Positions 4,870 to 22,400 of a stretch of DNA of 38,668 nucleotides are shown here, piece by piece. The notes beneath the pieces were generated by a model. That model saw only the letters and a program-made list of their open reading frames with translations, had not been told where the DNA came from and ran no database searches. This DNA comes from Synergistaceae bacterium OttesenSCG-928-D05 (GTDB lineage: Bacteria; Synergistota; Synergistia; Synergistales; Synergistaceae), in assembly GCA_030266985.1 (NCBI GenBank), contig JAJDJB010000014.1:1-38668 (forward strand). The letters run 5' to 3'. The translations under genes and the position numbers were made by a program. Numbering within the stretch: the stretch's first letter is position 1; every line of letters begins with the position of its first letter.

Positions 4870-6777
4870 GTGCGCATGAAAGTAAAATTGGGCAGGAATA
4901 AATCAATATCGCTCCTCCTGATCCTGTTTTTTGCAGTGATCGTGCCTTGCATGGCTTTGAGCCTTCTCGCGCTGCGCGCTGCGGACCGCGAATCCGTCTA
5001 TCTGGAAAAAAGACTCGAGAACACCCTGCTTGCGGAAGTCGATTTGGCGACGCGCGCGGTAAACGACCTTCTTTCCGCGCTCACATCGGAGCTTCTTGAA
5101 AGCTCAAGCGGCGTATCCGGAATTTTCGACCTCAGACCCTGGCATCAGGATGAAATTTTGTCCGACGTTCCCTTCTTACTGAAAAACGGAAAACTGACCC
5201 TGGTCGGCGTAAACCCGCGCCGGGAAGAGGTCTTCTTGGAAAGTTTCGGAGCATTCTTAGAAAACGGCGCGACGCTCCCCGTATATGACAGCGTCGCGCA
5301 GGTATACAAAAAAGAGCTCTACGACATGCCGGACGAAAAGGCCGGCTACGCGTCGAGCGCAGGTATAAGCGCGGTTCTGGCTCCCGCTCCGTCCGCGGAA
5401 GAAGACGCGGTTAAAATGAAAAAACCTTCCTCCGCCGCGCAGAAACAGCTCGCGGAGAGCAAACTCGCAATAGACCCGAGAGTCCGTGAAGAGGCGTTCT
5501 CTGCGCTTTCCGAACAGGGCTTCGAAGTCTCGCAGCGCAATGTCATCCCGCAGGCGGCGCAGGCCGAAAAAGAAGCGCCCACAGAAGACCTCTCCGTCAC
5601 CGTATCAAAAAACTACTCTTTCCGCGATTTGCGCGCGCGGGACAATCACGGCCTTCTGCCGCGCCTCACCGACCGGGGACTTTCCCTTCTCTTCTGGCGC
5701 ACCACGGAAAGCGGCGACGTCATCGGCACCTCGATCGACATGAACGTTTTAAAGGACCGCCTAATCGGAAGATTGCCCGCACTATACTCAGACGCGCGCG
5801 TTTTAACGATTCTGGACAACGCGGGCAATCCGATCATCGCACCCGAAACGGAGCGTGCGATCGATTGGCGCAGGCCTTTCGTCTCACGCGAAATATCGCC
5901 GCTCTTACCGCGCTGGGAAATTGCGGCATGGCTCACCGACCCGGACCTGCTCTCCTCGCAGGCGCAATTCACGAAACGGATCGTCTGGGTATCCGTCGCG
6001 GCGCTGTTTTTGGTAATCGCGGCCGGTTCCTATCTCGTATCGCGCATGATCTCCTACGAAATGAGAATCGCGGGACAAAAGACGACCTTCGTGGCAACCG
6101 TTTCGCACGAACTTAAAACGCCGCTTACTTCGATTCGGCTTTTCGCCGAAATGCTGCTCTCGGGCAAACAAAGAGACGAAGAAAAACAGAAAGAATATCT
6201 GAAAACCATGATGTCCGAAGCGGAACGCCTTTCCGGCCTCGTCGATAACGTACTCGCCTTCTCGAAAGGCGACGGCGTCGAATATCAAAAACAGGAACTC
6301 GATATCGGAGAGCTCGCGCACGACGTACTCGAACAATTGCGCCCGCATCTTGAAAAGCAGGGCTTCGCCCTTTCATTTGAAAAGGAACAGAACTTGTTCG
6401 TGCTCGGCAACAGAGAAGCGCTGAAACAGGTCTTCATGAATATTATCTCGAACGCGGAAAAATATTCCGACAAATCGCGGGAGATATCGGTCGCGTGTTT
6501 AAAAAACGGTGCTTTTGCGCAAATCAGGATCGCGGACAGGGGAATCGGCATCGCCCCCGCGCAGGCGCAAAAGATTTTCGACGAATTCTACCGCGTAGAC
6601 GAATCGCTTGCCGCACTGCGCAGCGGCACGGGCCTCGGCCTTTCGATCGCGAGAAATATCGCGCGAAAACACGGCGGCAACGTTCGCCACGAGCCGCGCC
6701 CGGGCGGCGGCAGCGCGTTTATACTCGACATACCGCTCTATCACGGCGACGGGGAGGCAAAACGACATGACACATAA
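4870..6777 (+). CDS. Membrane sensor histidine kinase
   Basis: This 635-residue kinase has a first membrane helix at about 14-36, a long extracytoplasmic region of roughly 330 residues, and a second helix at about 370-391. The HisKA domain follows with phospho-acceptor H413 in VSHELKTPLTS. The HATPase domain has its N box at NIISNAEKYS (N528), G1 at DRGIGI (about 557-561) and G2 at SGTGLGLSIARNIARKHGG (about 586-603). There is no clear HAMP domain between TM2 and HisKA. The sensor region includes an Ala/Glu/Lys-rich low-complexity part (about 170-240). The GTG at 4870 follows AAGGA by 7 bases; an ATG at 4876 is an alternative start. The gene overlaps the response regulator by 11 bases, so the two form a coupled two-component pair whose signal may involve the upstream VWA protein. 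Confidence 0.93.
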   Translation: MRMKVKLGRNKSISLLLILFFAVIVPCMALSLLALRAADRESVYLEKRLENTLLAEVDLATRAVNDLLSALTSELLESSSGVSGIFDLRPWHQDEILSDVPFLLKNGKLTLVGVNPRREEVFLESFGAFLENGATLPVYDSVAQVYKKELYDMPDEKAGYASSAGISAVLAPAPSAEEDAVKMKKPSSAAQKQLAESKLAIDPRVREEAFSALSEQGFEVSQRNVIPQAAQAEKEAPTEDLSVTVSKNYSFRDLRARDNHGLLPRLTDRGLSLLFWRTTESGDVIGTSIDMNVLKDRLIGRLPALYSDARVLTILDNAGNPIIAPETERAIDWRRPFVSREISPLLPRWEIAAWLTDPDLLSSQAQFTKRIVWVSVAALFLVIAAGSYLVSRMISYEMRIAGQKTTFVATVSHELKTPLTSIRLFAEMLLSGKQRDEEKQKEYLKTMMSEAERLSGLVDNVLAFSKGDGVEYQKQELDIGELAHDVLEQLRPHLEKQGFALSFEKEQNLFVLGNREALKQVFMNIISNAEKYSDKSREISVACLKNGAFAQIRIADRGIGIAPAQAQKIFDEFYRVDESLAALRSGTGLGLSIARNIARKHGGNVRHEPRPGGGSAFILDIPLYHGDGEAKRHDT

Positions 6778-7471
6778 AATTTTGATCGCGGAGGACGATC
6801 CCTCTATCCTGACCGCAGTTTCAGATCTTCTTTCAATAGAAGGCTACACCGTTGCGACCGCATCGGACGGAGACGCCGCACTGGAAGCGTACCGGAAGAT
6901 TGCGCCCGATCTGCTTCTGCTCGACGTCATGATGCCGAAAAAAAACGGCTACGATGTTTGCCGCGAAATCAGACGCACGGACGCGGCGACGCCGATCCTG
7001 ATGCTCACTGCTAAAGGCGAGGAAATCGATAAAGTGCTCGGACTTGAGCTCGGCGCCGACGATTACATCGTCAAGCCGTTCGGCATGGCGGAGCTGCTGG
7101 CGCGCGTGCGTGCCGCGCTGCGCAAAAGCGCCCTCATCGCAGCACCCGCCATAGACCACGCCCCAAAAACAATAATTTTTGACGATGTGACCGTCGATTT
7201 TGAAAGCATGAGCGGAACAAACGGAAAAGAGACCTTCAACCTCACGCCGAAAGAAACCGAAATGCTCCGCCTGCTCGTCGCAAACGAAGGCAAAGTCGTA
7301 TCCCGGGAAACGCTTCTCGAACGCGTATGGGGCATCGACTGCGAAATCACGACGCGCTCCGTCGACCAGCATATGCTGCGCCTGCGCCAGAAAATCGAAC
7401 GCGACCCCGCAAACCCGAAATTCCTGCACACCGCACACGGCGCCGGATATAAATTCGAACGAAAACCTTAG
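6767..7471 (+). CDS. OmpR/PhoB-family response regulator
   Basis: This 234-residue cytoplasmic regulator has a receiver domain at 1-118: acidic pocket E9-D10-D11, phospho-acceptor D53 in LLLDVMMP, T81 in LTAKG and K103 in DDYIVKPFG. A winged-helix DNA-binding domain covers about 130-234 (FNLTPKETEMLRLLVANEGKVVSRE, then TTRSVDQHMLRLRQKIE and HTAHGAGYKF). The ATG at 6767 was chosen because GGGGAGG lies about 10 bases upstream inside the kinase gene and the receiver fold begins immediately. It overlaps the kinase by 11 bases and is its evident partner. The TGAC(A) repeats at 3283-3320, ahead of the same gene group, have spacing that suits this regulator class. Confidence 0.95.
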   Translation: MTHKILIAEDDPSILTAVSDLLSIEGYTVATASDGDAALEAYRKIAPDLLLLDVMMPKKNGYDVCREIRRTDAATPILMLTAKGEEIDKVLGLELGADDYIVKPFGMAELLARVRAALRKSALIAAPAIDHAPKTIIFDDVTVDFESMSGTNGKETFNLTPKETEMLRLLVANEGKVVSRETLLERVWGIDCEITTRSVDQHMLRLRQKIERDPANPKFLHTAHGAGYKFERKP

Positions 7472-7482
7472 GCTCTAATCAG

Positions 7483-7743
7483 TTACGCAGATTTCCCATT
7501 CCTTATGCGTAAGTTTGGAAAGTATTCATAGGCTAGCCCCAAATCAAATAAATATTTGGGAAAGGAAATGCGCCACCCTCCGTTTACGGAACGCAGGATG
7601 TGATGCCCGCCGCTGACTCCTTCATATTCGCACTGCACCTCTGCCATGGGATACACTCTTACAACATAGTTCCATCCGACTTTCAGCTCTATAGCCGGTG
7701 TAAAACCGTCTGCCGCTCTTTCATAAACTGTCTTCGCAATCAT
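7483..7743 (-). CDS. Small hypothetical protein, last gene of the accessory island
   Basis: I do not recognise this 86-residue protein. It has no signal peptide or membrane helix and alternates short hydrophobic and polar stretches (AIELKVGWNYVVRVYPMAEVQCEYEG, then GWRISFPKYLFDLGLAYEYFP), suggesting a compact beta-rich domain. The ATG at 7741-7743 was chosen because GGAGGT (complement at 7751-7756) lies 7 bases upstream; an in-frame ATG at 7770 precedes that site. It is convergent with the response regulator, with 11 bases between stops. It lies 135 bases downstream of the HTH gene on the same strand and could belong to that group. Confidence 0.6.
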   Translation of the reverse strand: MIAKTVYERAADGFTPAIELKVGWNYVVRVYPMAEVQCEYEGVSGGHHILRSVNGGWRISFPKYLFDLGLAYEYFPNLRIRNGKSA

Positions 7744-7878
7744 CTCTTGGACCTCCGGACTCATTTGCATCCATTGTAGAAAAGGTGCGCGACAGCAGTA
7801 TGGAGTAGAGACGCAGAGGAAAATATGTTGCCGTAATTACCGCATGGCAGAATGAGTACAGAGAGAAGATGTTTTACT

Positions 7879-8499
7879 CTATATTTCCCCCAGAAGCAGT
7901 GATTTTCCTTCCGCACCCAAGACCCAGCCCATCTTCTGGCGGTCAAATTCGATATATTCTCCCGCGACTCGCAGCGAGTTAATGTAGCGTTGGACCGTAC
8001 GTGCGGAGACTTCCAGTTCGCCGCTGATTTGCTTCGTCGAGATACCAGGTCTGTTGCGAATCATAATGAGTGTTTTAAGAAACAGAATGTACTGACGACT
8101 GTGCGCTTCCTGCTTTTGTTTTGACTTTTCAACGTCCAACAGACAATATTTCGCGCTCTGCAGAAAATCGTCCGGCGAGAAAACCTTAACCCGCCGTGCA
8201 AGACCACTTGGCAAATCAACCGCTCCAAGCAGAACAATATCCTGGCCGCCCCCAACCTCGACCCAGAGATCTAAGAGTGTTTGCAGTTCATCCTGCGAAA
8301 GGCATGTCGTGTTTACCACATATAGATTTGCGTACTCAGCAATCACGTCAATATAGTTTTCTGTCAGCCGCAGTTCATTTTGTTTTAACATGCAGCTTTT
8401 TTTAATGAGTTCTACATGCTCCGGCGAAAGTCCCAAAGCGACTACTCGGGGATATGTGATTTCTTTTCCAGTCATTGGATTTATCACTGATTTAATCAT
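7879..8499 (-). CDS. HTH-domain protein with unknown N-terminal domain
   Basis: In this 206-residue protein, residues 139-195 form a DeoR/HTH_11-like winged helix (LFLKTLIMIRNRPGISTKQISGELEVSARTVQRYINSLRVAGEYIEF) of the type found at the N-terminus of WYL and other regulators; here it is C-terminal. Residues 1-125 alternate strands and helices (RVVALGLSP..., ANLYVVNTTC, QDIVLLGAVDLP, RVKVFSPDDF), suggesting a receiver-like or Rossmann-like sensing domain, but no phospho-acceptor pattern is evident. The gene follows the AAA+ and metallo-beta-lactamase genes on the same strand after 142 bases that contain a TATAAT-like box (complement at 8535-8540), so it may also have its own promoter. It is a plausible dedicated regulator of the module; the target is unknown. 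Confidence 0.7.
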   Translation of the reverse strand: MIKSVINPMTGKEITYPRVVALGLSPEHVELIKKSCMLKQNELRLTENYIDVIAEYANLYVVNTTCLSQDELQTLLDLWVEVGGGQDIVLLGAVDLPSGLARRVKVFSPDDFLQSAKYCLLDVEKSKQKQEAHSRQYILFLKTLIMIRNRPGISTKQISGELEVSARTVQRYINSLRVAGEYIEFDRQKMGWVLGAEGKSLLLGEI

Positions 8500-8534
8500 T
8501 GCCGCTACCCGCCTTTAAATTTTTTGTTTCAATT

Positions 8535-8540
8535 ATTATA
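8535..8540 (-). promoter_or_regulatory. Candidate -10 box for the HTH gene
   Basis: The minus strand reads TATAAT, 35 bases upstream of the HTH-protein start. No good -35 hexamer is seen at normal spacing, so this is only a candidate. Confidence 0.3.
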
Positions 8541-8641
8541 CAGAACCGCTGCGCCAGCCGTATAGGGTTGGGGAATATACCGGCAAATATGTTTATGAAA
8601 GGGCTGGAGCCTTTATTTTGCTTTCCGCGCTCCGTCATTTT

Positions 8642-9820
8642 CTACGTGATTTTAAATCGTACTCCATCTTCCGGCAACACTACTTCAGCGTCAGGACACA
8701 GCGTTTGGATATTCTCCGGCATCTCAGTATGAATTGGGAGCACATATTTTGCAGACGTCAATTCACAGATACTGCGTATTGCTTCCGGCGTCGCGTGGCC
8801 GGACGTGTGCATGATCTTCATCTTGCCCGCATCATGATACAACTGGACAAAATCCCGCATAGAGGAATCCTCTTTATCCTCGAGATAGCCATCCCACATG
8901 GAATAAATAAGGATCGTTTTTTCGTCATCGACATATCGACCCATAATACTTTTGAAAAAACTTCCCTGACGCACCGGCATCACGAAGCCTCGTTCTTTGA
9001 GCGCAAGATTTTCTCCGTAGATCAGGGCTTTTTTGAACAGATAACTGTTCGATTTCGTCTCTTCCGCAACAATGCTCATGATCTCTTTTTGATAACCGTC
9101 GCAAACAAAATAACGTCCGACGGGCGTCACGTTATGCAGCAGGGCAAGACGATCGATATTCGTTGAGGCGCACAGAACAAAAACATATTTATACTCACTG
9201 ACGACTTTTCTGATATCTTTCTGCAGTGCGATTTCCTTCTGCACGAAGACATCCTCCCGCGATAGCGTCGTCCCTTCGGTGATGAGCATATCCACGGCGC
9301 CGACATACTTTTTGAATATTTTTTTCGTGCCCTTGCTGCGAAATCCATGCAGACGAAAGTCTCCGGTATGCAGCACTTTTTTTCCGTCTGCCTCAAGCAG
9401 GAACATACAGGCATCATAAGCGGAATGATCCGCCGGAATTGGCGTAATTTTAATATCGCCAATCACAAACGGTCGCAGCGGAATGAACGTGTCGACTTTC
9501 TCAAGACATGAGAGATGCGCTGCTTTTGTGCGGCGCAGCACAGTTCGCATAATTTGTTTCGACACTTCACTCATATACGTAGGAACGTCTGGATGGATCT
9601 GATCCAACATCCCGATGTGGTCGCCATGATAGTGCGTAAAGAGAACAGCGTCACAAACGCGGCCTGCGCTGTTGACACCCTCCACCTCGATAACCCGCGG
9701 CGTCTCTCCGCCGTTTGGCAGTTCCGCGCCGAAATCAATCATCAACCGAGTCTTCTGCGTCGCAATCTCCGTCACACAACCGCCAATTTGTCTTGTTCCT
9801 CTATGTATTGTTACATCCAT
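8642..9820 (-). CDS. Beta-CASP metallo-beta-lactamase fold nuclease (RNase J-like)
   Basis: This 392-residue protein carries the zinc-binding motifs of the metallo-beta-lactamase fold: the HYHGDH motif (H63, H65, D67, H68), H132 in PADHSAYD and D154 in HTGDFRLHG. It also has beta-CASP signatures: an acidic residue in LITEGTTLSRE (E182), H342 in HTSGHATPE, and H364 in LPIHTE. Beta-CASP enzymes such as RNase J cut or trim RNA, and some act on DNA. This one is shorter than RNase J (about 550 residues) because it lacks the C-terminal domain. The ATG at 9820 was chosen because GAGGAG lies 9 bases upstream. It begins 13 bases after the AAA+ gene, so the two are almost certainly co-transcribed. The fold is secure; the substrate is inferred. 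Confidence 0.85.
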   Translation of the reverse strand: MDVTIHRGTRQIGGCVTEIATQKTRLMIDFGAELPNGGETPRVIEVEGVNSAGRVCDAVLFTHYHGDHIGMLDQIHPDVPTYMSEVSKQIMRTVLRRTKAAHLSCLEKVDTFIPLRPFVIGDIKITPIPADHSAYDACMFLLEADGKKVLHTGDFRLHGFRSKGTKKIFKKYVGAVDMLITEGTTLSREDVFVQKEIALQKDIRKVVSEYKYVFVLCASTNIDRLALLHNVTPVGRYFVCDGYQKEIMSIVAEETKSNSYLFKKALIYGENLALKERGFVMPVRQGSFFKSIMGRYVDDEKTILIYSMWDGYLEDKEDSSMRDFVQLYHDAGKMKIMHTSGHATPEAIRSICELTSAKYVLPIHTEMPENIQTLCPDAEVVLPEDGVRFKIT

Positions 9821-9833
9821 AGCAATTTTCTCC

Positions 9834-11765
9834 TCAAGCCGCAAAACCGACAGACCGTGTTTTGCGCGGCGCAATTATCCTTGCCAGGTCGCCTTCGGCA
9901 AAAACCTGCTCAATATCTGCGGCCTCTATCGCCATATCTTCCGTGCGCATTGCCTGCTGTACCTGCACCCGTTCAAAAATTTTACGGACAAGCCGGGCGT
10001 TCGCGAAATTAGTGTCCTTATTTGCCACGATTTTCTCCATATATTTAGTAATCATTTGCTCCGCTTCCAGCGACAGCAAATAGCCTTGCGCCGTACAGAT
10101 GTTCCTGAAAATTTGCACAAGCTCTTCCTGCGCGTAATCCGGAAAGTCGATATAGAACTGGATTCTGTCTCGCAAGCCTGGATTGACCTTCAGCATCTTG
10201 TCCATCTCTTCTGTGTATCCCGCCATAATGCAAACAAATTCCTTTCGCCAATCCTCCATGCGCTTGACCAACGTTGCAATAGCCTCGGCACCGAAGTCCC
10301 GTTCTGAACCATATATACCAAGCGAATAGGCCTCGTCGATAAAAAGCACGCCTCCTTGCGCTTCGCGTATCCGCGCAGCCGTTTTCATCGCTGTGTGTCC
10401 CACGTATAGGGCGATTAGGCCCTCCCGGTCCGTTTCAACAAATATTTCTCGATTTTTCGTCACGCCGATATCGGCGAAAATTTTTCCCAAAAGCCGTGCG
10501 ACTGTAGTTTTTCCTGTTCCCGGATTGCCGCGGAACACCATGTGCAGGCAAGGCAGCGAATCTTTTCCACGTCGCTCAAGAAATGCTTTTATCTCACGCA
10601 CCTTCTGCTTCACTTCTCCGAGGCCGACCAAGGATTCCAGTTCCTGCAATGGATCGTTTTCTTTATCGGAAGCCGCATCGTCTAAATCGACATCTCCCCT
10701 CGAAGTACATGGCAGTTCGAAATCAACACAATGAAGTTCCAATAAAAGTTCTTCATTATTGCTCAACTTGCGATAGATGCATTGCGCCAACATCTGTTTA
10801 AGAACCGGCATGGAAAGATCCAATAAATCGCTCCCCGTAAACTCCTCCGCCACAATCTGAAAACCACTGGAAGCGGCCTCTTGTATCAGAAAATTCAGCT
10901 TTTCTGCCGGAGATAGCTCGTTGAGCTCTATCACATGCGGGAAAAACGTGACAAAATCTTTATCCCGACGCATTTCTTCATATTCCTGATGACTCATATT
11001 TGCTAAATAAATTGGATTTTTCTTCCGGATTTTTTTTAGCGCACCTGTGGGTGATCTGTGCATAAATCGAAATCCAGATTCCGTTGCCCAGTCATCAAAA
11101 ATACAATATAAAAAAGGTGTGTTACGACTCGTATTAGCCGCATCCCATAACTCACCCTCCGCAATATAATAGTCACGGATAACCCCTGCGTTGGCAAGAA
11201 CGTCAAAAATATAATTGCAAAAAGGTTCCGTTTCCACCTCACAATGGTTGACTAGAACAACATTGTACAAACCTTTTGCGCCGGTTTGCCGGATATGTTT
11301 ACAGTAGCGCTGCAATTTTCGAAGCCCTTCCTTGAAATCCGTAAAACCATTCATTTGAGATAAGCTTTCTTCAATCTGCTCTGTGTTTTGTGTCTTCCAC
11401 CTGCATCGTTTCTCTCCATCGATTGATGATGCCGCCCTTGCTCTTCTGGCAACTTTGAGTTGCTGTTTTTCATCCAACGACAGCACTTCCATGTCCACAG
11501 GAGATATCAACACATCTGTTTCAAAAAGTTCAGTGAGCCGCTCCGTCATTTCCATCAATGAGCTCTTTGCGTTACGGACAAACAAGATATAACGCAAACG
11601 CCCATCGTTCATCACTTTGTCAAAAAATAGAAAACCATTTCTATTGTTGAACTTCTCCAATCCCTCAAGAATGTCCTCCTGCTCAATTTCTTCCCCGAGC
11701 TCCACGTAAACATAATATTGCGTACGCCCATCCAGCATATTTTCCTCGCTCTTCTTTGTCACCAT
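9834..11765 (-). CDS. AAA+ ATPase, CbbX/SpoVK-like, with degenerate N-terminal ATPase-like half
   Basis: In this 643-residue protein the C-terminal AAA+ module (about 375-635) is complete: Walker A GNPGTGKTT (413-421), a pore-like LYVGHTAMKT (453-462) close to CbbX, Walker B VLFIDEA (473-479), and arginine-finger region NPGLRDRI (528-535). Residues about 160-335 look like a second, degenerate AAA domain, with a beta strand VVLVNHCE where Walker A would be and a Walker-B-like LYCIFDDW (219-226), but no phosphate-binding lysine. Residues 1-110 are unfamiliar. The ATG at 11765 has GGAG 8 bases upstream; a GTG at 11774 is possible. CbbX-type ATPases remodel protein complexes. Coupling to the beta-CASP nuclease suggests it loads, activates or disassembles that enzyme's complex. 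Confidence 0.85.
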   Translation of the reverse strand: MVTKKSEENMLDGRTQYYVYVELGEEIEQEDILEGLEKFNNRNGFLFFDKVMNDGRLRYILFVRNAKSSLMEMTERLTELFETDVLISPVDMEVLSLDEKQQLKVARRARAASSIDGEKRCRWKTQNTEQIEESLSQMNGFTDFKEGLRKLQRYCKHIRQTGAKGLYNVVLVNHCEVETEPFCNYIFDVLANAGVIRDYYIAEGELWDAANTSRNTPFLYCIFDDWATESGFRFMHRSPTGALKKIRKKNPIYLANMSHQEYEEMRRDKDFVTFFPHVIELNELSPAEKLNFLIQEAASSGFQIVAEEFTGSDLLDLSMPVLKQMLAQCIYRKLSNNEELLLELHCVDFELPCTSRGDVDLDDAASDKENDPLQELESLVGLGEVKQKVREIKAFLERRGKDSLPCLHMVFRGNPGTGKTTVARLLGKIFADIGVTKNREIFVETDREGLIALYVGHTAMKTAARIREAQGGVLFIDEAYSLGIYGSERDFGAEAIATLVKRMEDWRKEFVCIMAGYTEEMDKMLKVNPGLRDRIQFYIDFPDYAQEELVQIFRNICTAQGYLLSLEAEQMITKYMEKIVANKDTNFANARLVRKIFERVQVQQAMRTEDMAIEAADIEQVFAEGDLARIIAPRKTRSVGFAA

Positions 11766-11818
11766 CGTCATCACTCCATTCCCGTTTTCGACATTCAGGA
11801 TAACACAGTGGATGGTGC

Positions 11819-11858
11819 ATTATATGGACAGCTTGGCATTTGTTGGATTTTCAAATCC
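11819..11858 (-). promoter_or_regulatory. Candidate promoter/operator of the AAA+ and nuclease genes
   Basis: The minus strand reads TATAAT at 11819-11824. A perfect inverted repeat, GGATTT-N2-AAATCC, lies at 11845-11858, roughly where the -35 region would be. No good -35 hexamer exists at 17-bp spacing, as expected for a promoter needing or blocked by a bound regulator. Confidence 0.4.
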
Positions 11859-11879
11859 TCTATAAAATCGCGTACACAA

Positions 11880-11902
11880 AAAGCGACCATGATGGTCGCT
11901 TT
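11880..11902 (-). terminator. Intrinsic terminator of the PD-(D/E)XK gene
   Basis: On the minus strand AAAGCGACC pairs with GGTCGCTTT around a 5-base loop and is followed by further T residues. It lies 34 bases after the stop at 11937, separating the nuclease gene from the AAA+ group. Confidence 0.75.
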
Positions 11903-11936
11903 AAACGATAGCTACCTATATTTGAGTTGCAATAGA

Positions 11937-12956
11937 TTACTTGTTCTTTTGCTCCAATTCTTCAATGAACTCTTCTAATGAGCAAATGTTGTCGTCATAC
12001 AAACCATACCCCATGCCAGAAGGTTTTGCTACCTTTATGTTAATGCCATTGCCGAGTAATGCTTTATATTCTGAACAGCCCTTAATCTCCAGCAAGACTT
12101 CTTTCAATTTTTCGCTTGCTGGCGGAATATTTATAAAAATAAAAAGAATTTCTATTTCAAGCTCAGAATGGTTGCATACGCTTGGAGCTGTGCCTTTTGA
12201 ACCCCTTAAAAGCGTGCCCAATTCATACTGATCTTCATATAAATCTCTTGTTTGTTCGATGAGATCCTGCTTGTGTGATTTTTCTATCAAATATTTGCAT
12301 ATATCCTTAACATGTTCCTTAAGCCCAGATTCTCCCGAAAGGGCGGCTTCCCCGTACTTGATTTCCACCAGAGACACTATTGCAGGATTTTCTGAATCAT
12401 TTGGCTGCCGGAGCGCCAACATATCGAAGCGCCCGCCTTTTTCTTTTTGGCTGTCTTTCGCCGTATATTCGACATCAACAAAATAATAGTTAAATTTCGT
12501 TTTTTTAAATTTATCATTTTTTCTGTTATTCTCCCGCCAAATTAGTTGCTGAAACTCTCTTTCTGGCTTTGGAGATACAGCTAGCCAACCATCCATGACG
12601 GCTTTTATTTTAGGAATATTTTCACACCAGTCCCGAACCCACTTCGACACATCTTCCCTAGTAGTTGGGTCGGCTTTAGGAAGCCCTTGTCCTAAAATAC
12701 CTAGCGTGTTGAGCAATTTATTCTTATTGGCATAACCTTCTGCATTAAACGATATACTATACGTTTTTTGGTTTACTGGGCCCTTTGTGAAGATTTTCAT
12801 CAAACTGCCGCCACGATAATAGATATTGATATAATTATTGCGAATCGCAAGGCACAACGTGTCATCATTTTGCACAAACTCCAAAATCGGGTGGAGTACG
12901 CCTTCCTTCTTTAAGTCTTTCATAAACGTATCTGATAAACTTCTCCGACTTCCCAT
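11937..12956 (-). CDS. PD-(D/E)XK nuclease-like protein, uncharacterised
   Basis: This 339-residue cytoplasmic protein shows the PD-(D/E)XK layout: an acidic helix KPEREFQQLIW (E132, E134), D178 in GRFDMLAL after a beta strand, then IVSLVEIKYGEAAL with E198 and K200. This pattern occurs in restriction endonucleases and DUF-type nucleases of defence islands. Residues 20-70 contain short strands (DDTLCLAIRNNYINIYYRGGSLMKI). The ATG at 12956 was chosen because GGAGGTG lies 8 bases upstream; ATG codons further upstream are rejected. It lies 137 bases downstream of a WYL regulator gene on the same strand. No methyltransferase is present, so it is not a classical restriction-modification pair. DNA cleavage is inferred from motifs only. 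Confidence 0.7.
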   Translation of the reverse strand: MGSRRSLSDTFMKDLKKEGVLHPILEFVQNDDTLCLAIRNNYINIYYRGGSLMKIFTKGPVNQKTYSISFNAEGYANKNKLLNTLGILGQGLPKADPTTREDVSKWVRDWCENIPKIKAVMDGWLAVSPKPEREFQQLIWRENNRKNDKFKKTKFNYYFVDVEYTAKDSQKEKGGRFDMLALRQPNDSENPAIVSLVEIKYGEAALSGESGLKEHVKDICKYLIEKSHKQDLIEQTRDLYEDQYELGTLLRGSKGTAPSVCNHSELEIEILFIFINIPPASEKLKEVLLEIKGCSEYKALLGNGINIKVAKPSGMGYGLYDDNICSLEEFIEELEQKNK

Positions 12957-13008
12957 CTTCTGCACCTCCATCGATATTTTTAAATCTGTGTTTACGTACC
13001 TTATAGAA

Positions 13009-13034
13009 AGTATAACTGACTGACTAACTGGCTG
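13009..13034 (-). repeat. Imperfect ACTG tetranucleotide tract at candidate promoter
   Basis: Bases 13015-13034 read as five imperfect ACTG units (ACTG, ACTG, ACTA, ACTG, GCTG). On the minus strand they sit directly upstream of TATACT (complement at 13009-13014), a possible -10 box for the PD-(D/E)XK gene. Confidence 0.4.
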
Positions 13035-13093
13035 GCCACGATTGTATGCCAACTTTACTTATTTTTCTGCACTAGACAGAAATACCATTATCA

Positions 13094-14092
13094 TTATTTA
13101 CGTTCGTAATTTTTCAGTATATCTCCCAGATACGCAAGATAGTGTTCGACCACTGTATCGGGTGAGAGGACTTTAACGGATTCGCCATAGTGGGCGAGCC
13201 ACTGGTATAGACCACGGTTGTCAACGACTCGGAGCGTTACGGAGAAACCGCCGTCCCTATCTTCGCTGAAATGCGCTTCTTTGCCAAAGCGGGCACGGAT
13301 GTGCGGACGCATGAAATCTTTGCAGTGCAACCGAATAGAAACCGTCTCACCTGTCCACATATTCACGGCGCTCCTCATGTAAGACGCCAGGTCGAACGCT
13401 TCGCCGTGTTCCGGCAATTCTCTTGGGTTACGTATGATTGTTTTCAGTTCATCTAAATTTGTGATTCTCTCCAAACGGAAATGTGTCAGGTGATCGTGCG
13501 TATCCGGGTTCGCAATCAGGTAATATTCGTACTGAAACATGACCAGGTAATAGGGGCTGACCGTGTAAACCTTACCGTCGCGATGCAGTTTTTTACCGGC
13601 GTCTTTCCCAACTGCGTGGTACTGAAAAGAAATTTTTCGCTTGTATTTGATCGCGCGCGTGAGTATGTCCAGTTTCATTTTGTTGCGGACGTTTTCGGTT
13701 TTGATGCCGGGGTCACAAAGGGAGGTCGCCTTGATGATCTCTTCGCCCTCTACCGTAGCAAGTGAGTGGATTTTTTTGACCAGATCCCGCGTGTCTTTCA
13801 CTGTCAGAAAAGGAGAGGCGTTTACCGCATCCGCAAGCAATTTCAGTTCGTAGTCCTCAAAAAGCTGGTCTGTCATGTAATAACCGCGATTGTGATCTTC
13901 GCAGAGCTTGATCGAATAACCCGCGTCGTCCAGACATGCAAGGTCACGAGCAATTGATTTGCGCTCGGCAGTGACGCCATATTTTGAACGCAGTTTTTTT
14001 GCGATTTCCGTTGTGTTGAGCGGATGCAGCCAGTCCGTTTTTTTCATGATTTCGAGAATATAGAGCAGTTTGAGCTTGCTGCTTTCAGCCAT
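13094..14092 (-). CDS. WYL-domain transcriptional regulator
   Basis: This 332-residue protein has an N-terminal winged helix (about 8-75; LNTTEIAKKLRSKYGVTAERKSIARDLACLDDAGYSI) and a central WYL-type ligand domain (about 140-215; ISFQYHAVGKD..., YTVSPYYLVMFQYEYYLIA), in which YYL stands for the WYL triad, followed by a WCX-like C-terminal domain. WYL regulators often control phage-defence genes and sense nucleic-acid ligands. The ATG at 14092 follows AAAGGA by 9 bases. A TATAAT box (complement at 14113-14118) lies just upstream. It is first in the minus-strand island and precedes the PD-(D/E)XK gene, so it may regulate that gene or the whole island. Confidence 0.85.
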   Translation of the reverse strand: MAESSKLKLLYILEIMKKTDWLHPLNTTEIAKKLRSKYGVTAERKSIARDLACLDDAGYSIKLCEDHNRGYYMTDQLFEDYELKLLADAVNASPFLTVKDTRDLVKKIHSLATVEGEEIIKATSLCDPGIKTENVRNKMKLDILTRAIKYKRKISFQYHAVGKDAGKKLHRDGKVYTVSPYYLVMFQYEYYLIANPDTHDHLTHFRLERITNLDELKTIIRNPRELPEHGEAFDLASYMRSAVNMWTGETVSIRLHCKDFMRPHIRARFGKEAHFSEDRDGGFSVTLRVVDNRGLYQWLAHYGESVKVLSPDTVVEHYLAYLGDILKNYERK

Positions 14093-14239
14093 AATCTCAC
14101 ATCCTTTCTGCAATTATAACAAACAAAGCTATACCAAAAACGTCCCGGCGTTTGTCCGGTCGCCTCAAAAAGGGGTAGACGGTATTCAAAGCAAAGACAG
14201 CTCGTTTTTTATTGACGCCCCGTGACCGAAACATTTTTT

Positions 14240-14258
14240 CGTGTAACTTTGTGTGGAA
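14240..14258 (+). repeat. Interspersed 19-bp repeat, outlying copy
   Basis: CGTGTAACTTTGTGTGGAA differs from the consensus CGTGTAACATTGTGTGGAA at one base. It lies about 12.6 kb from the main cluster at 26836-28022, in the region upstream of the WYL gene. Confidence 0.75.
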
Positions 14259-14372
14259 AAATCTTTCGAAGGAGAAAAACCGAAAAATTCAAACGAACGT
14301 GTGAATTGCATTCAAAGAAACCTCAAGAAGAGGTAAAGCGCAGCGAAGGCATGTCATAACGATGCACATGAA

Positions 14373-14435
14373 GAACGAGACCCCGGATGCGTATTTTCTA
14401 CGCTTTCGGGGTCTCGTTCAATTGTCGTGAAGTTA
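14373..14435 (-). terminator. Structured 3' element, copy 1 (after autotransporter)
   Basis: On the minus strand, TAACTTCACGACAATTGA leads into a hairpin with 12-bp arms (GAACGAGACCCC at 14373-14384 paired with 14408-14419) and an inner GCGTA/TACGC stem. It starts about 20 bases after the autotransporter stop. No T run follows, so termination strength is uncertain. Confidence 0.6.
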
Positions 14436-14456
14436 GCGGTGTGTCAGCGCCGCGTT

Positions 14457-17369
14457 TTAAAAACTAATGCGCCAACCTGCGTTCAAACGCCACTTGTTCT
14501 CGAAGTCGCCGCCTCTCGACGTTTCAAGGTCAAGATAAAGCGCGTTCCGCGGGTTCAGCATGTGCGTAACGCCAATGCCGTATACCCACCAGTCGTCGTC
14601 GAGCGTCTCGTAGATGATTACGTCGTTCGCGTTCACATTCATATCTCCGTCGAATTCCTTCAGATAGAATGCTTTCACATAGACGTTCGTCTTCGCGCTT
14701 TCATATCCCACGAGTGCCCCAATACGGCCGATCAGGGAATTGAAGTCATCGACGCCGATCCGGAGTCCGTTGTCGGCGTGGAAGGTACCGCCGCTGAAAT
14801 GCTGCCAGGATAGCTGTACCTGCGGTTCCAGATACCAATTGCCACTGTCTTCTTTCGGCCTGGTGCCCGCATCGTTGAATCTGAGGCGTCTTCCCATTTC
14901 AAGTGAGAGGCCTACGCCGCCCGTGTTGATTTTGCCGCCCTGTACCATCGTGCCGGCTGAATCATGTACGTTGAATTCATTTTTGCTCCATACGTATTTG
15001 GCGATCGCATCGAAGTAGTAACCGGTATCGTGGATGTAGGTCCAGTACATACCCATCGTGTGCTGTTCCAGATCGCCGGTTCCGTTGCCAAGTTGGTCGA
15101 AGTCCATGTCGCCCTTGCTCATGCCGACGAAGCCGCCGACGTAGGTGTCGCCGTTTTTAAACCAGCTCGTCTCACGTTCGAGCAGGTTATCGTAGCCCAT
15201 CTGTACGCCCCAGTAGTCCATGTCGAATCCGCGTACGTAGCTTCTGCTGTCCGATTCCATCTTGCCGCCGAATCCGCGGAACCACGCGCCGTGTGTACTG
15301 TGCTGCAGATCGCTTCTAAGGTCGCCGAGCCGCTTGATGAGCGTGTCGGTTTCCGCGTATGTGAGGAAGTAGGTACCAATGAAGGTGTTGACGCCGGAGG
15401 AAGCGGGATTGCTTGCGCCGTCCGCATACAGCTCCCAATATTGTCCGCCGGTTGCATCGTATCGCCCTCTGCCATCGTCGTTGTTGCGCAGTTTATAGAG
15501 CCATGCGCCTGCATCTACCCCGCCGCCCACGAGCGTGAAGTCTCCGCCTTTGTCCGCCGTTTCGATGAGCGTCGTACGTTCTTTGCCTGTCGTTGCGGCG
15601 CTGCCGCTATTGGCTACCACAACAAGGTGGTCGCCTTCCGTTTTTGCTTCGACAATCAGCCTGTCAGCCGTTTCGGCGGAAATATCAGTCTTCATGACGA
15701 ACGTGCCGTTTCCCTTCAGGCTGTTTACTGTCGCCTTCGTGCCGAGCGCGCCAAGACGGTAGTCAACAACGCTGGTACTGTCCACGTCCAGAACACCGTT
15801 GGTGAGCGAATCGGCGGTGATAAGCCACTGACTGTTCCGCAGGATCGCGTCAATCCCGCCGCGCTCGTATTTACTGTAGAGTGGACCTTTGTCGCCCGAC
15901 AGGTTAATCGATCCTTCCAGCGTCGAGTCCGTCAGGTTGATCGTCAATGTGCCGTCGTCATCCGGGTGGCGCGGGAGTATATCCAAGGCCTCGGCAAAGG
16001 CAGGGACAAAGTTATTCGGACGAGGCGGTACAGGTCGTTCACGCTCTTCAATACTGTGCAGGACATCCCCGCGCAGGTAACTGCCGTCTGACACATTCAT
16101 CGTATTGAAGTTGCGGCTCCAGAGAAGGTTGCGGTTGTCGGTCTTCAATCCCACGTTTACATTCTCGAGGTTGACTGTCGTGCCGTCCCACAAAATAAAA
16201 TGACTCGATTGTGTGCCATCGGCAAAGATGTCGATATCGCCGTTTGCCATATTAAAGGTGCCGAAATAGTTTCCTGCTGTGAGATTTGAAGCGACTGCAA
16301 CTGCGTTCGTACCTTTTACAACGACTGAGGATCGCGCGGACGGGTCAGATATGTTCACCGTTGACCCAGCCCCGCTTAAGTGCACGCCAAAGAGTCGTGT
16401 GTTATCGCTTTCCGCGCCCTCGGCATAAAGCGACCACGCGCTGATAACACTGTTGTTGGTTGCAGAAATTCCATACGACAGGACAGAGGAGCCCGTCGTG
16501 TTGAATAGATTTACGTTCCCGTTCACATCGATATACGCTGTTTTCGCGTCGGTAGTATCACCATAGGCAACTATGCCATTCTTTATATTCTTTCCAATGA
16601 GATTGACATCGCCGTCGACGGTCACATTTGCCTCCGCATATACATCAATAGCTACGCTCTCGTCCCCGCTTACAGTGATACTGCCAACTGTCGCGTTGCC
16701 TCCAAGCCAAGCCGACACGCCATATGCGTTATTCCCGTACACTTCGATCGCTCCCGTTTGAGCGGAGGCGCCACTGCCTTCTACCAGCAATGCAGCTCCA
16801 TAATCCCCGTACAACGCAATGACTCCGTCTACAGTGACATTAGAAACACTATCCACTGCGTATGGTGCGCGTACCCCAAACGACCCGTCGCCGGAAACAA
16901 TAACGTTGCCGCCAACGTGCAAATCTGCGCTATGGACCAAAGCACCGAGCACACTAATGCCTGTGGCTTCGATGTTCCCGTCAATCTGGACGTCTGCTCC
17001 GTAGAACGATTGGACGCCGAATGTGAGTCCGCCAGCATCGGTCTTAGTCAGGTAGACATTCCCGTCTACCTGGACGAGCGCGTCGTTCGTCGCGTAAATT
17101 GCCTGTACTTGCTTCTCGCCTGTGACGCTTATGTCCTTACTGACGTTCAATACGCCCCCGTCTACTTGCGCGCCGATCGCGTTAAGACCGGTGACTATGA
17201 TATTGCCCGTAACGTTCATCTCTTCGCCGGACAACAAATTGACACCCTTAGTGTTATCAGCACTTGCTACGACGTCACCGTCTATTGTCGCCGCGTAGGA
17301 AGCACCATGAATACAGAAAAGAAGTAAAAGAAAAGATAGAATAGCCGAATTTTTTATACGCTCACCCAA
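14457..17369 (-). CDS. Autotransporter with outer-membrane beta-barrel
   Basis: This 970-residue protein has a signal peptide (SAILSFLLLLFCIHGASYA, residues 8-26), a long passenger, and a C-terminal autotransporter barrel from about residue 690 to the terminal aromatic WRISF. The passenger (about 27-680) contains many short degenerate repeats of the form DGNVxLxG, typical of a right-handed beta-helix as in pertactin-type passengers. The barrel begins near HGAWFRGFGGKMESDSRSY and shows alternating aromatic strands. Such proteins export their own passenger to the cell surface; adhesion or surface-structure roles are common, but none can be assigned. The start is TTG at 17367-17369, 5 bases after GGGGGAG. 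Large AT-rich upstream DNA with two ACTTTATAC boxes may hold its control region. Confidence 0.9.
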   Translation of the reverse strand: MGERIKNSAILSFLLLLFCIHGASYAATIDGDVVASADNTKGVNLLSGEEMNVTGNIIVTGLNAIGAQVDGGVLNVSKDISVTGEKQVQAIYATNDALVQVDGNVYLTKTDAGGLTFGVQSFYGADVQIDGNIEATGISVLGALVHSADLHVGGNVIVSGDGSFGVRAPYAVDSVSNVTVDGVIALYGDYGAALLVEGSGASAQTGAIEVYGNNAYGVSAWLGGNATVGSITVSGDESVAIDVYAEANVTVDGDVNLIGKNIKNGIVAYGDTTDAKTAYIDVNGNVNLFNTTGSSVLSYGISATNNSVISAWSLYAEGAESDNTRLFGVHLSGAGSTVNISDPSARSSVVVKGTNAVAVASNLTAGNYFGTFNMANGDIDIFADGTQSSHFILWDGTTVNLENVNVGLKTDNRNLLWSRNFNTMNVSDGSYLRGDVLHSIEERERPVPPRPNNFVPAFAEALDILPRHPDDDGTLTINLTDSTLEGSINLSGDKGPLYSKYERGGIDAILRNSQWLITADSLTNGVLDVDSTSVVDYRLGALGTKATVNSLKGNGTFVMKTDISAETADRLIVEAKTEGDHLVVVANSGSAATTGKERTTLIETADKGGDFTLVGGGVDAGAWLYKLRNNDDGRGRYDATGGQYWELYADGASNPASSGVNTFIGTYFLTYAETDTLIKRLGDLRSDLQHSTHGAWFRGFGGKMESDSRSYVRGFDMDYWGVQMGYDNLLERETSWFKNGDTYVGGFVGMSKGDMDFDQLGNGTGDLEQHTMGMYWTYIHDTGYYFDAIAKYVWSKNEFNVHDSAGTMVQGGKINTGGVGLSLEMGRRLRFNDAGTRPKEDSGNWYLEPQVQLSWQHFSGGTFHADNGLRIGVDDFNSLIGRIGALVGYESAKTNVYVKAFYLKEFDGDMNVNANDVIIYETLDDDWWVYGIGVTHMLNPRNALYLDLETSRGGDFENKWRLNAGWRISF

Positions 17370-17567
17370 AATGACTCCCCCTTGGAATCAACACTGCCGC
17401 ACCTGATCTCCGCAAAAGCACGGCGCACCTAAACAACACAAGACCTGCGCTATGGTTTCTAATATTTCGTTTTTCTGATTCCCCCCGCTATATTAGCTCT
17501 TTTCAAAACAGATATGTCGTCTTAACAAAACACGACCGATATACGTAATTAATGTCGGGTTTCACAT

Positions 17568-17617
17568 ACTTTATACCTATTCATAGGCACTTTATACTAA
17601 TTTTATTAAAATGTCTA
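17568..17617 (-). promoter_or_regulatory. Candidate autotransporter promoter with paired boxes
   Basis: ACTTTATAC occurs at 17568-17576 and 17589-17597, 21 bp apart, flanking the inverted repeat CCTAT-N2-ATAGG (17576-17587). On the minus strand TAGACA (complement at 17612-17617) and TAAAGT (17589-17594) are separated by 17 bp, an acceptable -35/-10 pair. Regulation by a protein binding the boxes is inference. Confidence 0.35.
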
Positions 17618-17840
17618 TACTTAATTTACTTTTAGTTTTTTAAATTTCCCTATAATTTTTTCTGGCAAAGGATATAAATTACCTTTTGGCACCCATAATA
17701 TCTTCGTCGTATCGTTCGCCACGCAATTAGAGACTCGAGTCGCAGGGGATTCTTTCAAAAGGAGCCATAGCAGGGTAAAACGCGGCGATATTTATGCAAG
17801 CTAAGCACGCGATTATAACGTGCGATGAACGGAAGAGCAC

Positions 17841-17906
17841 AAAAAGAGCGGCTCCGGGGCGTATTTTCATACGCCGCTGGAGCCGCTCTCAATTGTTGAA
17901 AAGTTG
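17841..17906 (-). terminator. Structured 3' element, copy 2 (after carboxyltransferase gene)
   Basis: On the minus strand AACTTTTCAACAATTGA leads into a hairpin whose 10-bp arms GAGCGGCTCC (17879-17888 with 17846-17855) enclose an inner GGCGTA/TACGCC stem, then a TTTTT run. It has the form of an intrinsic terminator. A second small hairpin, CGCGTT-N2-AACGCG, lies just before it at 17910-17923. Confidence 0.75.
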
Positions 17907-17930
17907 GTTACGCGTTAGAACGCGCCTTTT

Positions 17931-19487
17931 TTAAACAGGGTAGGCGTCCGGATCAACCTGTTCCTGCAGTCCGATATCCACCATGTTCTCCCGCGCGAAT
18001 TTCTTCGGGAGGAAGTCTTTCGCAACTTGCGGGAAGAGCACGTAGCTCAGCACGTCTTCAGGCTGTGTCGCCCATACGCCGATTTCCTTGCGCGCCGCTG
18101 CAAGTTCGGGCTCGATCTTCTCACCGGGCCGTACTGTGATTTGCGGCTCGTCGCCCAGAATTTTTTTCTGGATCTCCGGGTCGACGGGCGCCGGGGTCTT
18201 GCCGTAGTAACCACGGAAGTATTGATAAACTTCCTTCGGGACGAACTTGTAGCGCTCGCCCGAGATGATGTTCATCGCGGCCTGCGTGCCGACGATCTGG
18301 CTGGTCGGCGTTACGAGCGGCGGATATCCCATCTCTTTGCGGACGCGCGGAACTTCTTCCATGACGTCTCTGAACTTATCGAGCATGCCCGCTTCTTTGA
18401 GCTGGCTCTGCAGGTTCGAGTACATGCCGCCGGGGATCTGGTAGAGCAGGATGTTGATGTTGACGCCGCTGATGCCCATGATCAGATCTTTGTATTTGTC
18501 CGTCAGCTTCATGTAGTATTCCGCGACCGGAAGGAGCTTTTCGAGGTCGAGCCCCGTGTCGAGCGGGCCGCCTTTGAGCGCCGCGACCATCGTTTCGGTC
18601 GCGGGCTGGCTCGTTCCCATCGCAAACGGGGAAATCGCGCAGTCTACGATGTCCGCGCCCGCTTCAACCGCCGCGAGGTAGGACATTGCGGCCATTCCGC
18701 TCGTGTAGTGGCTGTGTATCTGGAGCGGCAGATCGACCTTCTTTTTGATCGCGCGAACGAGCGCGTCGGCTTCGACGGGGGAAAGAAGCCCCGCCATGTC
18801 TTTGATCGCGATGGAGTCCGCCCCCATGTCCGCCATGTCGCGCGCCTGTTTTACAAACAGATCGAGCGTGTGGACCGGCGAGATCGTGTAGGAAATCGCC
18901 ATCTGGAGATGGGCGCCTTCTTTTTTGACCTGCTCCGCCGCGATGGACATGTTGCGCAGGTCGTTCAGCGCGTCGAAGATACGGACGATGTCGATGCCGT
19001 TGCCGACGGCGCGTTTGACGAACTCGCGAACGGTTTCATCCGCATAGTGCTTGTAGCCAACGAGGTTCTGCCCGCGCAGGAGCATTTGCGTCTTCGTTTT
19101 TTTCAGACGTTTTCTGAGCTGGCGCAGCCTGTCCCAGGGGTCTTCGCCCAGGAAGCGCATCGCCGAGTCGAACGTTGCCCCGCCCCACATCTCTACAGAG
19201 TGGTAACCGACCTCGTCCACCGCTTCTGCGATGGGGATCATATCCTCCGTGCTGAGGCGCGTCGCCATGATCGACTGATGCGCGTCGCGGAACCCTGTCT
19301 CCATGATTCCGACTTTGCGTTTCGGCAGAGCGGTTTCATTCGCAGGCTTCTGTTTTTCCACGACCGTTACACGGGTCTCCTCGATTATTTCGGTCACTTT
19401 GACTTCGGGTTTTTTCTCAGTCACTTTTGTAGCCACCTTCCGTCCGTTGCTGTCTGTGATGTGCTGCTTGACTTCGTTCCGGTCCAA
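17931..19487 (-). CDS. Biotin-dependent carboxyltransferase subunit (pyruvate carboxylase B / oxaloacetate decarboxylase alpha type)
   Basis: In this 518-residue protein the carboxyltransferase domain is clear from about residue 57: RDAHQS (R67, D68, H70, Q71), the carboxylated lysine K229 in SIAIKDMAG, and metal ligands H258 and H260 in LQIHSHYTSG. It moves CO2 between biotin and pyruvate/oxaloacetate. The C-terminus stops after the conserved DVLSYVLFPQVAKDFL region and has no biotinyl domain with an AMKM-type motif, so a separate biotin carrier is needed. The first ~55 residues are a charged extension (VTEKKPEVKVTEIIEETR) not usual in the family. The start is TTG at 19485-19487, 7 bases after GGAGG located in the end of nifJ, two bases after the nifJ stop. 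The coupling puts it at the pyruvate node. Confidence 0.88.
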   Translation of the reverse strand: MDRNEVKQHITDSNGRKVATKVTEKKPEVKVTEIIEETRVTVVEKQKPANETALPKRKVGIMETGFRDAHQSIMATRLSTEDMIPIAEAVDEVGYHSVEMWGGATFDSAMRFLGEDPWDRLRQLRKRLKKTKTQMLLRGQNLVGYKHYADETVREFVKRAVGNGIDIVRIFDALNDLRNMSIAAEQVKKEGAHLQMAISYTISPVHTLDLFVKQARDMADMGADSIAIKDMAGLLSPVEADALVRAIKKKVDLPLQIHSHYTSGMAAMSYLAAVEAGADIVDCAISPFAMGTSQPATETMVAALKGGPLDTGLDLEKLLPVAEYYMKLTDKYKDLIMGISGVNINILLYQIPGGMYSNLQSQLKEAGMLDKFRDVMEEVPRVRKEMGYPPLVTPTSQIVGTQAAMNIISGERYKFVPKEVYQYFRGYYGKTPAPVDPEIQKKILGDEPQITVRPGEKIEPELAAARKEIGVWATQPEDVLSYVLFPQVAKDFLPKKFARENMVDIGLQEQVDPDAYPV

Positions 19488-19489
19488 AC

Positions 19490-22400
19490 TTAGTCCTCCA
19501 TTTTCATTGCCGCCATGTGCGTGTAGTACCGCCAGCGCGCTTTAATATCTTTTTCTTCTTCTTTCAGAAGCAGTTCCGCTTCTTTGGGTGCGACGGTAAA
19601 GAGGCTCTTGTAACGCGTCTCGTTCATGATGTAGTCTTTGAGCGGGATCGACGGCGCTTTACTGTCGATGATGAGCGGGTTTTTGCCCTCTTTCGCAAGG
19701 TCCGGGTTATAGCGCATGAGAATCCAGTGGCCGGATTCGACCGCTCTCTTCTGCTGGTCAAGGCCCGTGACCATGTCGATGCCGTGCGCGATGCAGTGGC
19801 TGTACGCGATGATGATCGAAGGTCCGTTGTACGCTTCCGCTTCCTGGAACACTTTGACCGTATGCGCGTCGTTTGCGCCGAGCGCCACGCGTCCGACGTA
19901 GACCGAACCGTAGCTCATCGCCATCAGCGCCAGGTCTTTTTTGCCGTTGCGTTTGCCGCCTGCCGCGAACTTCGCGATCGCGCCGCGCGGCGTCGCTTTC
20001 GACATCTGTCCGCCCGTGTTCGAGTAGACTTCCGTGTCGAGCACGAGGATGTTCACGTTTTTGCCGGACGCAAGCACGTGGTCGAGTCCGCCGTAGCCGA
20101 TGTCATAGGCCCAGCCGTCTCCGCCGACGCACCAGACGCTCTTTTTGACGAGCGCGTCCGCGACCGAAGCGAGTTCTTCCGCCTCTTCCGTGCCCATGTA
20201 TTCGAGCTGAATCTTGAGCGCTTCTACGCTTTCGAGGACTTCGCGAATTTCCGCGTCCGTGTTCTGCGGCGCGTCAAGGATCGAGCGCACCATGTCAGAA
20301 CCAAGTTCGGGCTCCATTTTCTGGAGCAGTTCTTCCGCATACTGCGCGTGTTTGTCGATCGCGAGCCGGAAGCCCATGCCGAACTCCGCCGCGTCTTCGA
20401 AGAGCGAGTTGCTCCATGCGGGACCGCGTCCCTCTTCGTTGACCGCCCACGGCGTCGTGGGCAGGTTGCCGCCGTAAATCGAGCTGCAGCCCGTCGCGTT
20501 CGCGATCATGGCTCTGTCGCCGTAGAGCGAGGAGAGCAGTTTCAGATAGGGCGTTTCGCCGCAGCCGCCGCAGGCGCCGGAGAACTCAAAGAGCGGGCGC
20601 ATGAGCTGCACGTCTTTGACCAGCGTCGTGTTGAGTTCTTTGCGGTCCACATCGGGGATCGCAAGGAAGAAGTCCCAGTTCTCGCGCTCTTTTTCGCGAA
20701 CGGACATCTGGTTCACCATGACGAGCGGCTTCTCCGCCGGCTTGTCTTTCTTCACCGGGCAGTTGTATGCGCAGAGACCGCAGCCGGTGCAGTCTTCCGT
20801 CGAAATCTGGATCGTGAATTTCTTGCCTTCGAACTGCTTCCATTTCGCTTCGGTCGATTTGAACGTGTCGGGCGCGTCCTTCAGGAGGTTCGCGTCGTAG
20901 ACTTTGGAGCGAATGACCGCGTGCGGGCATACCAGAGCGCACTTGCCGCACTGGATACAGGTCGCCGGATCCCACTGCGGGACGTCGATCGCGATGTTTC
21001 TCTTTTCATACTGCGTCGTTGCGCTCGGGAACGTTCCGTCCTCGGGCAGCGCGGAAACGGGCAGAGAGTCGCCTTCGCCGACCATCATCGGGCCGAGCAC
21101 GTTTTTCACGAACTCCGGCGCGTCGTCCGCAACCGGCGGCAGAATGTCGAACTGGCTGGTCGCCTTTTTCGGCACTTTGACTTCATAGAGGTTGGCAAGC
21201 GTCGCGTCGACAGCGGCGATATTCTTTTCGACTACGTCTTTGCCCTTCTTGCCGTAGGTATCCTGAATCGATTTTTTGATCGACTTGATCGCCGCGTCTT
21301 TCTTGAGCACGCCGCTGATCGCGAAGAAGCAGGTCTGCATGATCGTGTTGGTGCGTCCGCCCATGCCCGTCTCTTTCGCGATTTTGACCGCGTCGATGAC
21401 GTAGAATTTCAGTTTTCTGTCGATGATGCGCTGCTGCGTTGTAAGCGGCAGATGATCCCAGACTTCTTCAGGGCCGAACGGGCTGTTCAGAAGGAAAGTG
21501 CCGCCGACCGCCGCGTTCTTCAGGATGTCCAGTTTCTCGAGGAACGAGAAGACGTGGCATGCGATGAAGTTCGCGTTGCAGATGAAGTAGCTCGCAAGAA
21601 TCGGGTTCGGGCCGAAACGCAGGTGGCTGATGGTGATGCCGCCGGACTTCTTGGAGTCGTAGCTGTAATACCCCTGCGCATAGAGGTCCGTGTCGTTGCC
21701 GATGATTTTGATCGAGTTCTTGTTCGCGCCGACGGTGCCGTCCGAGCCAAGTCCGTAGAACATGCAGCGCACGGTCTGCGGATCTTCCATGTCGCAGGCG
21801 GGGTCGTAGTCGAGGCTCGACCAGCTGACGTCGTCGTCGATGCCGACCGTGAAGCTGTCTTTCGGCGCAACTTTTTTCAGCTCGTTGAAGACCGCCATAA
21901 CCATTGCGGGCGTGAAATCTTTAGAGGAGAGGCCGTAGCGTCCGCCAACGACCATAATATCCGTATCGGAAAGCGCTTCGCGCACGTCCATGCAAAGCGG
22001 TTCGCAAATCGCCGTCGGGTCCTTCGAACGGTCGAGTACCGCGATGGACTGTACCGTCGCCGGAAGCGCGTTCAGGAAACGTCCGATGTCGAACGGACGG
22101 AAGAGACGCACGACAAGCACGCCGACCTTTTCGCCGTCTGCCGTCATCTTGCGGACCGTCTCACGCGCAACGGCGGCGCCGGAGCCCATGATCACGATCA
22201 CGCGCTCTGCGTCTTCCGAGCCGTAATAGTCGAACAGGTGGTATTTGCGGCCGATCTGCTTCGCGAAGTTGTCCATCGCGCGCTGCGTAACGTCGGGCAC
22301 CGCTTCAAAATAAGGCGTGCACGCTTCGCGCGACTGGAAGAACACGTCGGGGTTCTGCGCCGTGCCGCGAATGAAGGGCGCCTCTGGCGAAAGCCTGTTG

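Follow-up and report, generated by a model that had tools for sequence, protein, structure and literature searches.

The stretch of DNA analyzed here (the window) spans 38,668 nucleotides of Synergistaceae bacterium OttesenSCG-928-D05, and we found that it holds a cassette of five minus-strand genes, which encode, in order, a WYL regulator, a PD-(D/E)XK-type protein, a CbbX-like AAA+ ATPase, a beta-CASP metallo-beta-lactamase (MBL) and a helix-turn-helix (HTH) protein (Table 1). A sequence-only reading had placed the last three genes on the minus strand as a trio, and their coordinates bear this out; the PD-(D/E)XK-type and WYL genes, upstream on the same strand, were both missing from it. In steps of 1500 bases, GC content is 42-49% across the island versus mostly 54-59% in the flanks, and the flanking genes scanned beside the island are ordinary. 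Judging by composition, the cassette island was apparently acquired horizontally. An autotransporter gene with a pertactin-type stretch (window 14457-17369) adjoins the island.

Table 1. Features of the five-gene cassette and its island, in window coordinates
Feature	Position	Strand	Remarks
HTH-WYL-WCX transcriptional regulator	13094..14113	-	339 aa from TTG; ATG near 14092 possible
PD-(D/E)XK-type protein	11937..12956	-	~340 aa; reading frame extends to 13052; homologues suggest a start at 12956
Intrinsic-terminator-like hairpin stretch	11870..11930	-	Between PD-(D/E)XK-type and AAA+ genes
CbbX-like AAA+	9834..11774	-	ATG at 11765 possible; family models and alignment
Beta-CASP metallo-beta-lactamase (MBL), RNase J/CPSF73-like	8642..9820	-	392 aa; models, motifs, fold
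HTH_11 protein, candidate regulator, uncharacterized N-terminal domain	7879..8499	-	HTH_11 match; homologues beside MBL
Low-GC stretch, taken as acquired island	7501..15000	.	Limits set by 1500-base steps

The best start of the MBL gene is the ATG at 9820, which lies downstream of a purine-rich, ribosome-site-like sequence (GAGGAGAAA) and fits the MBL homologues; therefore, the gap between the AAA+ and MBL genes is exactly 13 bases, as had been counted from the sequence. In the hairpin (z = -2.57), a run of U comes after a stem of 10 bp. Since this terminator-like element parts the PD-(D/E)XK-type gene from the AAA+ gene and since 142 bases separate MBL from HTH, tight co-transcription is apparent for AAA+ and MBL only.

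For the MBL, we found H67-x-H69-x-D71-H72, H136, E186 (motif A), H346 (motif B) and H368 (motif C), numbered by row 1 of the alignment and invariant across diverse homologues. Hence, the full HxHxDH and beta-CASP residues previously ascribed to this protein are present, and with the motif A acid, the motif B His, the motif C His/Val position and an MBL fold with a beta-CASP cap, it is a beta-CASP MBL. A family scan returned Lactamase_B_2, and the MBL profile matched chains of RNase J, CPSF73, INTS11 and Cas14, the nearest being 2AZ4 (EF2904). The AF2 model (pLDDT 91.5) had a TM of 0.80 to 2AZ4 and ~0.76 to RNase J and also matched CPSF73; against the RNase J model NCBIfam TIGR00649, the score was 53.3 bits, far under the family cut-off of 400. 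A His at motif C is a feature of the RNA-acting beta-CASP group, so the His found here makes RNA cleavage likely. We read the MBL as an RNase J-type enzyme with predicted RNA cleavage. It shares with RNase J/CPSF73 and EF2904 the fold, HxHxDH and motifs A to C, the last with His; however, its ~392 aa leave no room for the C-terminal domain of RNase J, and unlike all of these it sits in a cassette with a PD-(D/E)XK partner.

The PD-(D/E)XK-type protein had no match in Pfam or NCBIfam. Among 22 homologues, R41, Y48, E134, Q138, D163, E165, D180, E200 and K202 are invariant, and D180, E200 and K202 form the D...(E/Q)xK motif of the PD-(D/E)XK phosphodiesterase superfamily. Using an alignment that left out one plasmid sequence, we obtained an AF2 model (pLDDT 83.1) that Foldseek matched weakly to BstEII (first), BsmI, EndoMS, Avs3 and UL24; even the best match is weak (E 8e-3, probability 0.60, TM ~0.2). 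Hence, the motif and the weak fold matches together suggest the PD-(D/E)XK assignment, and nuclease activity is predicted. The protein is likely the DNA-cutting or target-recognizing part of the cassette.

The C-terminal half of the AAA+ protein matches the AAA, AAA_lid_6, SpoVK and CbbX models, in agreement with its earlier description as CbbX/SpoVK-like, with scores under the equivalog cut-offs of SpoVK (261 of 423 bits) and CbbX (215 of 459 bits) and also below that of EccA. Its layout is a variable N-terminus, a degenerate D1 without a Walker A motif, an intact D2 with its active-site residues kept, and a C-terminal VGF (IGF-type) tail; the weak alignment of D1 with D2 spans 221 columns (probability 63.5, P 6.8e-5). 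Compared with the CbbX/SpoVK/EccA family, the protein is alike in D2 and AAA_lid_6 but differs by its extra degenerate D1, its IGF tail and its sub-cut-off equivalog scores. It may work in the CbbX-type manner through its D2 domain.

Conserved without exception in 11/11 sequences, the C-terminal [IV]GF also occurs in 22/23 members of the subfamily in another set that shares some of its sequences with the first; several paralogues of SpoVK-like or multi-domain type do not have it. ClpX docks on ClpP through an IGF/LGF loop, and the housekeeping ClpX proteins in the examined genomes carry an IGF/LGF-type tripeptide. At two loci (L051:6623-9317 and L050:1434-4010), an IGF-tailed CbbX-like AAA+ gene lies beside clpP and a methylase/HsdS-like gene, and McrBC-like genes come next in L051. 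The clpP beside the AAA+ gene in G006 is a second copy, the other being in the tig-clpP-clpX locus. By analogy with ClpX, the AAA+ tail resembles a ClpP-docking motif and would allow docking on ClpP.

The WYL regulator matches Pfam WYL (5.8e-12) and WCX (2.5e-11). In the third protein of the sequence-only reading, HTH_11 spans residues 144-192, in agreement with the C-terminal winged helix read there. Full-length homologues of the HTH protein lie beside MBL in two other loci, L061 (36%) and L121 (31%), whose genomes (G107 and G108) have no close AAA+ homologue. Both WYL and HTH proteins would control the cassette.

The usual partner of the MBL is an adjacent PD-(D/E)XK-type protein. Scanning genomes with a three-sequence MBL alignment yielded 80 MBL relatives. 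Bacillota and Bacteroidota supply most of these; a few come from other phyla, among them one from Synergistaceae. After gene calling and clustering of the neighbor genes, we counted D...ExK by a regular expression that misses some members and makes a few matches by chance, and found it in 48/73 same-strand upstream neighbors (66%) and 13/57 same-strand downstream neighbors, relative to 15/505 distant genes (3%). In many of the PD-(D/E)XK-MBL pairs, the two genes share 4 bases. By sequence, the partners belong to several families, of which c1 and c7, and c6 and c16, are related by profile comparison; relatedness of c1 and c6 was not detectable in this comparison.

WYL genes occur in 20/80 MBL loci, and WYL, PD-(D/E)XK, AAA+ and MBL recur together, with their order shuffled, in distant genomes. 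Four-gene sets are found in the window, in L151 and L152 (PD-MBL-WYL-AAA), in L077/L153 (WYL-AAA-x-PD-MBL), in L091 and in L081. The MBL also occurs on plasmids, and in one such copy, from Butyrivibrio, it is accompanied by WYL and a PD-(D/E)XK-like gene.

Other genes accompany these loci. A calcineurin-like phosphoesterase gene immediately follows the MBL gene in L093, L110, L118, L127 and L031; since this metallophosphatase (c10) follows MBL in some loci only, mainly in Bacteroidales, we rejected it as a defining member and treat it as accessory. Family c79 adjoins the c1 nuclease-type gene in L077 (3602-4549), where it sits between AAA+ and c1, and in L071 (5546-6547).

The AAA+ protein is an optional partner, as most MBL loci are without it: CbbX-like AAA+ relatives occur in 10/80 MBL loci, with a WYL gene in 8 of those 10. 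Among 336 genomes drawn from one Clostridia order, the close AAA+ family was found in 38, MBL in 41 and both in 24, relative to 4.6 expected when phylogeny is ignored; the E cut-offs (1e-119 and 1e-60) were picked after the lists had been seen. The two genes lie within ~6 kb on one contig in 6/24 genomes, relative to 0.3 expected for random positions (4/22 after dropping the two genomes in which the link had first been noticed), and in one more at 15 kb. Because these tests take independence and random position, ignoring phylogeny and island clustering, and because contigs of metagenome-assembled genomes are fragmented, the statistics indicate association, not mechanism.

The AAA+/WYL association is enriched, with WYL near 16/20 of the Clostridia AAA+ genes examined. 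DUF2779-like, DnaB-like and DnaE-like genes, labels that we presume from sequence reading, are also common in these clusters (L135-L154), and Pfam matches to DnaB_C and DNA_pol3_alpha occur near MBL genes. The Clostridia AAA+ clusters look as if they were a variable island. In the window's own family, an AAA+ relative is with WYL alone in L049, and AAA+ relatives lie between a methylase-like gene and clpP in L050 and L051. MBL has a single clear relative there, in L054, and it is without AAA+.

These neighborhoods support in part the proposal that the ATPase and nuclease are coupled under the HTH protein. AAA+ and MBL do co-occur and co-locate beyond expectation, but the exact AAA+/MBL/HTH trio is present in 0/80 other MBL loci, and the window's own family has AAA+ without MBL and MBL without AAA+. 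Hence, we rejected the trio as a natural unit. The suggested company of defense genes was found to a limited degree: pAgo, type III methylase, AbiEii, DRT reverse transcriptase and DUF262-type genes neighbor MBL, yet PADLOC matches are only mildly commoner near MBL than 5.5 kb away, since distant genes give such matches too.

We compared the cassette with known systems and, as the sequence-only reading had supposed for its trio, matched no named PADLOC, Pfam or NCBIfam system. Scanning PADLOC-DB 2.0.0 gave no system-specific match; LmuA (0.0028), DolB (3e-5) and IetA (5e-5) were weak, and the only strong match was generic WYL. No system with the cassette's gene set was found in the open-access literature, a search that most subscription journals lie outside, and among open papers linking beta-CASP, CbbX, WYL or MBL with defense, CoCoNuTs and type VII CRISPR alone were relevant. 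Cas14 of type VII CRISPR-Cas, to which the MBL profile matched, is likewise a beta-CASP nuclease used in defense (PMC10910872); however, the five cassette proteins include no Cas5 or Cas7 and window positions 5000-20000 hold no CRISPR-like repeats, so this reading was rejected. Type III-A CoCoNuTs similarly carry a tandem SpoVK-family AAA+ as an add-on to a predicted defense operon, but have McrBC-type GTPases and VWA genes, neither of which is among the five cassette genes (PMC11090510). WYL also stands beside nuclease-type genes in WYL-regulated defense loci (Makarova et al. 2014, as cited in PMC11090510), but we found no named system with the cassette's gene set.

The reading we prefer, whose chances we judge to be about evenly balanced, is that the cassette is an acquired, WYL-controlled and probably defensive unit with a core nuclease pair of PD-(D/E)XK and RNase J-type beta-CASP proteins and an optional AAA+. 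In its favor are the D...ExK counts beside MBL, the 4-base overlaps, the several partner families, the shuffled four-gene sets, the excess of AAA+ with MBL, the defense genes among the neighbors, the low GC of the island and the retained active-site residues of MBL, PD-(D/E)XK and D2. Against it count the mild PADLOC enrichment, the weak fold matches of the PD-(D/E)XK-type protein, the many MBL loci without AAA+, a co-occurrence figure uncorrected for phylogeny and the hairpin that parts the nuclease-type gene from AAA+-MBL in the window. A somewhat unlikely alternative is that one island holds two independent modules, the PD-(D/E)XK-MBL pair and WYL-AAA+, made neighbors by defense-gene clustering and sharing no mechanism. 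This would account for the loci where AAA+ has WYL but no MBL (L049 and the majority of the 20 from Clostridia), for the company of clpP and a methylase-like gene that AAA+ keeps in L050/L051, and for MBL-PD pairs that are mostly without AAA+, although it fits poorly with the operon-like 13-base junction in the window and with the 6/24 linkage, whose null is random position and not island clustering.

We consider it improbable that the MBL, as a specialized paralogue of RNase J equipped with an ATPase, turns over RNA under stress or in quality control: its RNase J/CPSF73 fold and RNA-type motif C His agree with such a role, but its patchy distribution (41/336 Clostridia genomes), plasmid copies, low-GC island and diverse nuclease-type partners argue against it. 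Similarly low is the probability of a toxin-antitoxin-like pair in which the toxicity of one nuclease-fold protein is kept in check by the other; complete catalytic residues in both proteins, each larger than usual antitoxins, oppose this idea, despite the tight two-gene pairing with 4-base overlaps and the plasmid copies.

If the cassette is a WYL-controlled nuclease unit, infection or another trigger would relieve the WYL (and HTH) regulator, and both nucleases would then attack nucleic acid of the invader or the cell. The AAA+ ring would unfold or remodel a protein target. This could be the nuclease complex, or else a protein of the invader or an inhibitor, which the ring would hand to ClpP through the IGF-like tail. 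More tentatively, and in our view rather unlikely in its entirety, the cassette may represent an undescribed modular defense that has a constant RNase J-type beta-CASP protein, an interchangeable PD-(D/E)XK protein, WYL control and an optional tandem CbbX-like AAA+ whose C-terminal IGF tail recruits ClpP, coupling proteolysis to nucleic-acid attack. If true, a beta-CASP and PD-(D/E)XK nuclease pair would join bacterial defense outside CRISPR, and the cassette would point to a family of unfoldases, CbbX-like in type, whose C-terminus engages ClpP.
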